From Akkermansia sp. (lineage in GTDB: Bacteria; Verrucomicrobiota; Verrucomicrobiia; Verrucomicrobiales; Akkermansiaceae): DNA of 64,000 bases. Where the stretch lies: the NCBI GenBank assembly GCA_017477935.1, contig JAFVIC010000037.1:1-64000 (forward strand), given 5' to 3'. Each line of letters starts with the position of its first letter. Positions within the stretch are counted from its first letter, which is position 1. The notes beneath the pieces were generated by a model that did no database searches, was not told the origin of the DNA, and saw nothing but the letters and a program-made list of their open reading frames with translations. Both the position numbers and the translations under genes were made by a program. This document shows positions 18,303 to 36,166 of the stretch, piece after piece.

Positions 18303-19220
18303 TCAGCGCCGCCTGCTGTGCCCGCCGATGCGACGAGAGATGCTGCTGCCGCGTGAGACGCTGGGGCGCTGGTGGCCGGCGCTCGGCCGCTGCCCGATGT
18401 TGGGGCGCTGGTGGCCGGCGCTCGGCCGCTGCCCGATGTTGGGGCGCTGGTGGCCGGCGCTTGGCCGCTGCCCGATGTTGGGGCGCTGGTGGCCGGCGCT
18501 CGGCCGCTGCCCGATGTTGGGGCGCTGGTGGTTAGCGCTCGGCCGCTGATGCCCGATGTTGGGGCGCTGGTGGCCGGCGCTCGGCCGCTGCCCGATGTTG
18601 GGGCGCTGGTGGTTAGCGTTCGGCCGCTGGTGCCCGACGTTGGGGCGCTGGTGGTTAGCGTTCGGTCGCTGGTGCCCGACGTTGGGGCGATGGTGGCCGG
18701 CGCTCGGTCGCTGGTGCCCGACGTTGGGGCGCTGGTGGTTAGCGCTCGGTCGCTGGTGCCCGACGTTGGGGCGATGGTGATTGGTATGCCCGTGGTGAGA
18801 ATTGCCGTGGTGGTGTATGGGGGCGTTCATACCACCGTGCGGGCGTACCGTTGGGTGGTGTCCGTGGGGGTGGTGCGGCGGCCGGGCTACACGGTGAATA
18901 TGGTGCGGGTAATGCCAGTGCCCGTGGTACCAGGGGGCAGGACCCCAGTCAGGCACAAAGCACAGTGCCGTCAGAGCTGCTATGCTGAAAATAGCGGCAC
19001 CGGTGGCCGTATAACCGTATACGGGGCGACCGTATGAATAACCGTAAATAGGGAATCCGTCGGCATCGTAGCTGGCGTTTGTCCAGGCCACCCCTACGCT
19101 GGCTCCGTAGCCATTCGTGCCGTACGTGAATGACCCGTACCCGTCTACCGGCGTCACGCACGACGTGCACAGCACCCCCGCGCATGCCAGTATTGCGATT
19201 GATATATCTTTCAATTTCAT
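18303..19220 (-). CDS. Lipoprotein with His/Arg/Pro-rich tandem repeats
   Basis: MKLKDISIAILACAGVLCTSC is a lipoprotein signal with lipobox LCTSC. A Gly/Tyr-rich part (about 27-75) and a hydrophobic stretch (AAIFSIAALTALCFVPDWG) come next, then a His-rich region (WYHGHWHYPHHIHR). From about residue 145 to 290 the protein is a tandem array of 13-residue (RPNIGQRPSAGHQ) and 14-residue (RPNVGHQRPSANHQ) units. The tail is SRRIGGHSRRR. The repeats are strongly basic and rich in histidine, so binding of metal ions or of polyanions is plausible but unproven. Copy number probably varies by slippage. The ORF on the opposite strand is only a by-product of the repeats. Confidence 0.7.
   Translation of the reverse strand: MKLKDISIAILACAGVLCTSCVTPVDGYGSFTYGTNGYGASVGVAWTNASYDADGFPIYGYSYGRPVYGYTATGAAIFSIAALTALCFVPDWGPAPWYHGHWHYPHHIHRVARPPHHPHGHHPTVRPHGGMNAPIHHHGNSHHGHTNHHRPNVGHQRPSANHQRPNVGHQRPSAGHHRPNVGHQRPNANHQRPNVGHQRPNANHQRPNIGQRPSAGHQRPNIGHQRPSANHQRPNIGQRPSAGHQRPNIGQRPSAGHQRPNIGQRPSAGHQRPNIGQRPSAGHQRPSVSRGSSISRRIGGHSRRR
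18361..18780. repeat. 39/42-bp coding minisatellite
   Basis: About ten tandem copies of a 39-bp unit (containing GGGGCGCTGGTGGCCGGCG on the plus strand) and of 42-bp variants. Unit lengths are multiples of three, so changes in copy number keep the lipoprotein frame. Confidence 0.85.
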
Positions 19221-30621: not shown

Positions 30622-30738
30622 TACGACGGCACAAGCCGTCGTAATCTCGCTGCTCCGTCAGGAGCAATCTCGCTCAGCAATCCTGCTGAATCTTGCTTTC
30701 GGCGCAAGCCGAAAATCTCGCCTGTTACCGCATCAGGC
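30622..30738. repeat. Hairpin array A: variable stems, constant ATCTCGC spacer
   Basis: Five successive inverted repeats: TACGACGGC/GCCGTCGTA with loop ACAA (30622-30643), TGCTCC/GGAGCA with loop GTCA (30651-30666), TCAGCA/TGCTGA with loop ATCC (30674-30689), TTTCGGC/GCCGAAA with loop GCAA (30697-30714) and GCCTG/CAGGC (30720-30738). The spacers are ATCTCGCT, ATCTCGC, ATCTTGC and ATCTCGC. The stems differ in sequence but stay paired, while the spacer is kept. No ORF. The array lies between the ExbB/ExbD operon and the phage-like module, and resembles array B at 36002-36166. Confidence 0.85.
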
Positions 30739-36001: not shown

Positions 36002-36166
36002 CCCCCGGGTCGGCAGCCGCCGACCCGGGGGAATTACTTCCACTGCCGCCGTCAGGCGGCAATTTCAATGGCAGCGTCAGCTGCCAATTTCAATATGCCC
36101 TCGCAGGGGGCATCATTTCACTGTGGGCGGTACGCCCACAATTTCACCGGCCGCCACAAGCGGCCG
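36002..36166. repeat. Hairpin array B: variable stems, constant ATTTCAA/ATTTCAC spacer
   Basis: Six successive hairpins: a 13-bp stem CCCCCGGGTCGGC with loop AGCC (36002-36031), TGCCGCC/GGCGGCA with loop GTCA (36044-36061), TGGCAGC/GCTGCCA with loop GTCA (36069-36086), ATGCCC/GGGCAT (36095-36113), TGTGGGCG/CGCCCACA (36122-36140) and CGGCCGC/GCGGCCG with loop CACAA (36148-36166). After the first, longer spacer, the spacers are ATTTCAA, ATTTCAA, CATTTCAC and ATTTCAC. All stems differ. The array begins 91 bases after the phage scaffold-like gene. No ORF. Confidence 0.88.

Follow-up and report, generated by a model that had tools for sequence, protein, structure and literature searches.

The window analysed here is a 64-kb stretch from an Akkermansia assembly (G000; 113 contigs, 92.7% complete). 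On its + strand, at 30622-30738, four strong hairpins and a weak fifth stand in a row with the heptamer ATCTCGC between them (array A). The site is a gap between protein genes, and the array starts about 15 bases 3′ of a stop codon. Hairpin 1 (30622-30643), with a 9-bp stem, reads TACGACGGC(ACAA)GCCGTCGTA and is followed by the first ATCTCGC (30644-30650), a member of the spacer class ATYTCRC. Hairpin 2 (30651-30666; 6-bp stem) reads TGCTCC(GTCA)GGAGCA and precedes the second ATCTCGC (30667-30673). Hairpin 3 (30674-30689; 6-bp stem) reads TCAGCA(ATCC)TGCTGA, and the heptamer after it, ATCTTGC (30690-30696), is one base off. Hairpin 4 (30697-30714; 7-bp stem) reads TTTCGGC(GCAA)GCCGAAA and completes the strong part of the array (30622-30714). 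The fourth ATCTCGC (30715-30721) overlaps the weak terminal hairpin GCCTG(TTACCGCAT)CAGGC (30720-30738), which was found by folding; other copies end in CTGTTACC...GCATGAGGC.

The + strand of array A folds with a z-score of −5.7, as RNA and as DNA alike, and none of 200 shuffles folded as well, so that the row of hairpins with a near-constant spacer, first proposed from the letters alone, is real. Chains of at least three perfect 6-bp hairpins at array spacing occur twice in the window, at array A and at 36002-36166; at the same six-base setting there were none in 20 Markov-shuffled windows. A covariance-model search of the window with Rfam returned tmRNA and tRNAs only and left array A unmatched. 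The second chain (array B; 36002-36166, + strand) is of the same kind and is flanked by convergent genes. It has a leading 13-bp hairpin followed by five hairpins, its spacers are ATTTCAA, ATTTCAAT, CATTTCAC and ATTTCAC, and more copies of it lie in its own genome on contigs C4, C7, C16 and C65. The window also holds a tandem repeat at 18362-18779, built of 39/81-base units in about 5-10 copies.

Copies, covariation and the folded strand

Searches and fetched stretches of G000 gave near-full copies of array A on C72, C112, C65 and C85 and truncated copies on C60, C39 and others, several of them near contig ends, as is usual for repeats. Sequence and order of the stems are largely preserved in the copies (82-92% identity), with stems partly broken in some, and whole modules can be absent (C39 retains hairpins 1 and 4 only). 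The sequence-only reading had described the stems as unlike each other. This is true within array A; between copies it fails, since stems at the same position are largely alike.

The genus was searched with the pattern ATYTCRC, 12-26 bases, ATYTCRC, using the reversed pattern as control. Matches were far above control in about 14 of 59 Akkermansia genomes, with a peak in G023 (up to 100 versus 2 for the reversed control), and near control level in many others. Judged by named relatives, the array-bearing species sit among ruminant-gut Akkermansia assemblies. An order-wide search gave many ATYTCRC pairs outside the genus which, among the matches listed, were coding-like and not hairpins. No array with this spacer, and so no viral home, was found on IMG/VR viral contigs, where the sensitivity used gave 91 pattern matches, 6 of them with four of five outer positions paired and none an array.

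The arrays are intergenic and, in a small sample, occupy convergent, tandem and divergent gaps, none of them clearly favoured. At the site of array A, the orthologous gene is followed by no array in many relatives, and others have different repeats there. Two arrays of species G057 are missing at the matching sites of G002, one of which holds a RAYT composite. At L251 (G002:C22:28600-31200), about 2.5 kb of what are by appearance ankyrin-type repeat genes stand where G057 has an array composite. The mobility of array A is judged from its dispersed copies and from occupied and unoccupied sites; the relatives tested gave no exact empty site, and no target-site duplication was obtained. A terminal inverted repeat of G023 (AAATGGGAAGTTGT...) gave no target-site duplication either. 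Several spacer families can be chained in one gap: runs of CTTCAT-spaced hairpins come after ATCTCAC arrays in G057 and G002, and a constant-spacer repeat, CTATCATG, adjoins ATCTCAC arrays at L072:680-870 and L072:15690-15840 (G057) and at L250 (G002).

G002 and G057 have an array homologous to A in which the spacer is ATCTCAC and the stems are altered yet still pair. The stem at the position of hairpin 1 is TGAGCGGC/GCCGCTCA in both species, that of hairpin 3 is TCATCC/GGATGA and that of hairpin 4 is TTTCTCC/GGAGAAA. Array A and its relatives were aligned as a family of six members, in which 95.2% of cells pair; changes on both sides affect 8 pairs and 15 cells, compared with 0-5 such cells when the partner was slid by 1-3 columns. 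Among 57 non-redundant units, 67-86% pair at each position versus 24-45% with shuffled arms. The idea that stems vary under a conserved structure and spacer is thus upheld by compensated changes across arrays and species, and the further copies with covarying stems that this idea called for exist in both the genome and the genus. On the strand that reads hairpin and then ATYTCRC, there are 22 loops of the form G..A and 2 of the form T..C. Of 12 adjacent double mismatches, 5 are tandem G.A pairs, which are intelligible only in a folded strand. This loop excess and these pairs indicate that the hairpin-then-ATYTCRC strand folds on its own, as single-stranded DNA or RNA.

A standing structured RNA of the locus, as first suggested, gives way to a dispersed repeat missing from the orthologous place in most relatives. 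It is also unlikely that the arrays are a cis-acting structured RNA of 3′ untranslated regions, serving processing, stability or termination, which spread as a repeat. Such an RNA would suit the place of array A just past a stop codon and that of array B between convergent genes, and the GNNA/GNA loops and the covariation fit RNA as well as single-stranded DNA. However, arrays lie in all three kinds of gap with their orientation to genes unclear in the small sample, full elements hold both orientations, many relatives have no array at the orthologous gene end, and no Rfam family matches.

IVP genes between inverted arms

Array clusters of G023 and G018 contain the same small gene between arrays, which encodes a 23S-rRNA-IVP protein (PF05635). 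Among 92 IVP genes that were listed or fetched, and so are not a random draw, constant-spacer hairpin arrays judged by a fixed criterion flanked 32 (20 of them on both sides), versus 1 of 50 control loci, and the single positive control locus is itself a real array; the other 60 IVP genes had no array by this criterion. The arms are symmetric and inverted around the gene, with the order of stems mirrored. Each array has its own constant spacer, TATCG, TTTCG, TTTTCACC, TCTTCAC, ATATCAC, ATTTCAC, ACTTATC or AATTCTC at the IVP arms, and ATYTCRC-class arrays with an IVP gene were found in G002, G010, G018, G023, G044, G047 and G072. The 97 distinct detected arms, which hold at least 3 spacers by construction, have 3 or 4 and never more. 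Exactly five hairpins per arm, matching a pentamer, was not borne out by the counts: hairpins range from 2 to 5 per arm.

A complete element lies at G002:C48, with the heptamer ATCTCAC. Each of its arms holds about four spacers, and their order is reversed from one side of the IVP gene to the other. The complete repeat of G023 consists of two inverted half-arrays about a central hairpin (z = −14.5 for the whole fold), and the spacers of its half-arrays, GYGAAAT and ATTTCRC, are complementary. The stems of the arrays beside the IVP gene of G023 recur in gene-less arrays at other places of the G023 genome.

Every one of the 32 array-bearing IVPs belongs to a single 42-row clade of the protein tree (SH-aLRT 97). 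Mapped on this tree, the spacer family needs 7 changes, versus a mean of 19.4 and a minimum of 15 with shuffled labels (0 of 300 as low), the families having been grouped by eye before the test and not blind. Species labels put through the spacer-family test gave no signal (25 versus 25).

These results bear on two other origins. One is a neutral mosaic repeat, with the IVP gene as a passenger in repeat-rich gaps and the spacer as a relic of local duplication. Many repeat families do share these gaps and some array copies are decayed, but neutrality sits badly with symmetric arms inverted about the gene in mirrored stem order and with a spacer that follows the IVP lineage. In the element common to the close species G057 and G002, moreover, 0 of 108 stem positions changed versus 8 of 125 in the flanks (p 0.008), and we regard a neutral origin as very improbable.

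The other is a REP/BIME-like repeat moved by a RAYT, a Y1 HUH transposase that would read the hairpins as folded single strands. RAYTs are present in 10 of 14 array-rich and 12 of 45 array-poor genomes (Fisher p 0.004), one lies within an ATTTCAC array cluster of G023, the RAYT of locus L095 has ATTTCGA hairpins on either side, and RAYT-type repeats and arrays occupy common intergenic hot spots. Against this, RAYT genes have ends of a different kind, two hairpins 11-13 nt apart with GGGGTGAC-like motifs, and few RAYT loci have ATYTCRC arrays. G000, G007 and G009 carry many arrays and no clear RAYT, and a search of the 92.7% complete G000 assembly for a cognate RAYT gave no PF01797 match. A RAYT origin would account for part of the distribution, but the link between spacer and IVP lineage is left unexplained by it. 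Once the leading idea, it was demoted to the main rival in view of the distinct RAYT ends and of a spacer that tracks the IVP, and it now appears rather unlikely. A REP-core regular expression proved too loose, with 34 chance matches in shuffled sequence. RAYT loci were seen in Akkermansia, Bacteroidales and other Verrucomicrobiota (L095, L108, L109, L110, L113, L114, L123 and L124); in gut Bacteroidales and Verrucomicrobiota their ends are alike, two small hairpins 11-13 nt apart, inverted on both sides of the gene, and many of the loops are GTAA or GAA. An origin from a tyrosine recombinase or an integron, suggested by recombinase-like genes that flank the G023 cluster, was also rejected: these genes merely adjoin the cluster with their 3′ ends, and attC-like cores were not seen.

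IVP genes outside the array clade commonly have plain tandem repeats of period 7 alongside, usually four or five units. Of 120 non-array IVP arms, 75 reached 4 or more units with 4 or more invariant columns, versus 3 of 200 control windows, and periods 6 and 8 were near background in the same test. IVP genes of other Verrucomicrobiota likewise have period-7 tandems, a few of them period-8 tandems. In place of period 7, tandems of period 8 or 6 flank a handful of IVP genes (L469, L471, L473 and L480; L435 and L436). At L365 and L366 (G063 and G017) one IVP arm, on the downstream side only, holds at least 8 nearly perfect CCACTCT heptamers. Tandem repeats are also known from the Coxiella intervening sequence (IVS), where two to three copies of GACAGAT and a degenerate copy precede the S23p ORF and the terminal stem is 28 bp (PMC4990558). 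The Xanthomonas S23p is a homopentamer of four-helix bundles, as cited in PMC4990558, and the role of S23p-carrying rRNA intervening sequences is described as unclear (PMC4990558). The structure 2rld, of a PF05635 relative, has five chains. Avd of diversity-generating retroelements belongs to the same superfamily of four-helix-bundle pentamers as S23p and binds nucleic acid. We know of no nuclease activity of PF05635. Searches of the open-access literature gave no account of hairpin arrays of this kind beside IVP genes.

Array A as a probable gene-less arm

Array A has the four heptamers (30644-30721) of an arm with about four motifs. It comprises one arm only at 30622-30738, with no inverted second arm and no PF05635 gene alongside; two-arm versions exist in G023, G002 and G057. 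G000, an incomplete assembly, yielded no IVP gene with arms of the ATYTCRC class, and neither did the array-rich G007, also incomplete; contigs of both assemblies break at array repeats. One of the two IVPs of G000 has arms of the TTTTCACC class and the other has plain heptamers and no array. Array A is probably one gene-less arm of a mobile element of the 23S-rRNA-IVP type (S23p, four-helix-bundle, PF05635), a family in gut Akkermansia in which the IVP gene would be the sole gene. A single arm, no gene and no IVP of the same class found in the incomplete genome suggest a gene-less derivative or relic and not a full S23p/IVP member. In the simplest reading its constant spacer corresponds to the tandem heptamer that flanks other IVP genes, the hairpins having arisen between the copies, and the heptamer is likely to be the recognition unit of the IVP, for which it is the candidate.

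We propose that a pentameric IVP would bind the motif copies of one arm on the folded single strand. The hairpins would take up the DNA or RNA lying between the motifs and keep the motif spacing regular, a role that would need pairing but no particular stem sequence. The two arms would then meet, and a further enzyme would carry out excision or insertion. Arms without a gene, array A among them, would either move in trans or be relics. Repeated binding by a protein and a recombination site recognised as a folded single strand, the two roles first put forward for the array, are both possible, with the IVP as the candidate protein.

More tentatively, and at somewhat less than even confidence, S23p/IVP genes may mark small mobile elements that make up a large class not recognised before, with ends formed in each arm by about four tandem heptamers and read by a pentameric S23p; in ruminant-gut Akkermansia the arms would have become hairpin-heptamer arrays and spread gene-less. 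If true, transposition would be run by a multimeric nucleic-acid-binding protein without known nuclease, a host enzyme doing the chemistry. PF05635 proteins are widespread and often annotated merely as four helix bundle protein. The heptamer, inherited with the protein lineage and in one clade alternating with covarying hairpins, is a specific candidate for the recognition code of this family. It also makes directly testable an old proposal, in which the IVS is mobile and encodes a mobility protein. An origin from IVP elements would also account for dispersed hairpin repeats outside any named repeat family.

Comparison with known systems

Array A resembles CRISPR arrays in its regularity, but its repeat is 7 nt and the unit in between is self-complementary; direct repeats of about 23-40 nt, separated by unique spacers that are not palindromic, were not found in it. 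Integron attC sites are recognised as folded single strands, as array A may be, but no attC core sites were seen in the arrays. REP, BIME and REPIN repeats moved by RAYT (TnpA-REP) are also dispersed intergenic palindromes of mosaic build with inverted pairs, and are probably recognised as folded single strands. REP/GTAG repeats are defined by a GTAG or CGTC tag beside the palindrome (PMC3733652), which array A lacks; its spacer is the constant heptamer ATCTCGC, stems within one array are unlike, and the linked gene is an IVP and not a RAYT. Bacterial MITEs (Correia, RUP and similar) are, like array A, gene-less dispersed copies with inverted repeats of a gene-bearing element, but the arms here are hairpin arrays and not simple terminal repeats, and no DDE transposase is implicated. 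The 23S rRNA IVS with an S23p/IVP ORF, known from Coxiella and Leptospira, differs in that array A lies in a protein-coding intergenic gap outside 23S rRNA, has hairpins between its heptamers and holds no gene in the copy; what the two kinds of element have in common is the PF05635 gene, inverted terminal repeats, tandem heptamers and a sporadic, mobile-like distribution.
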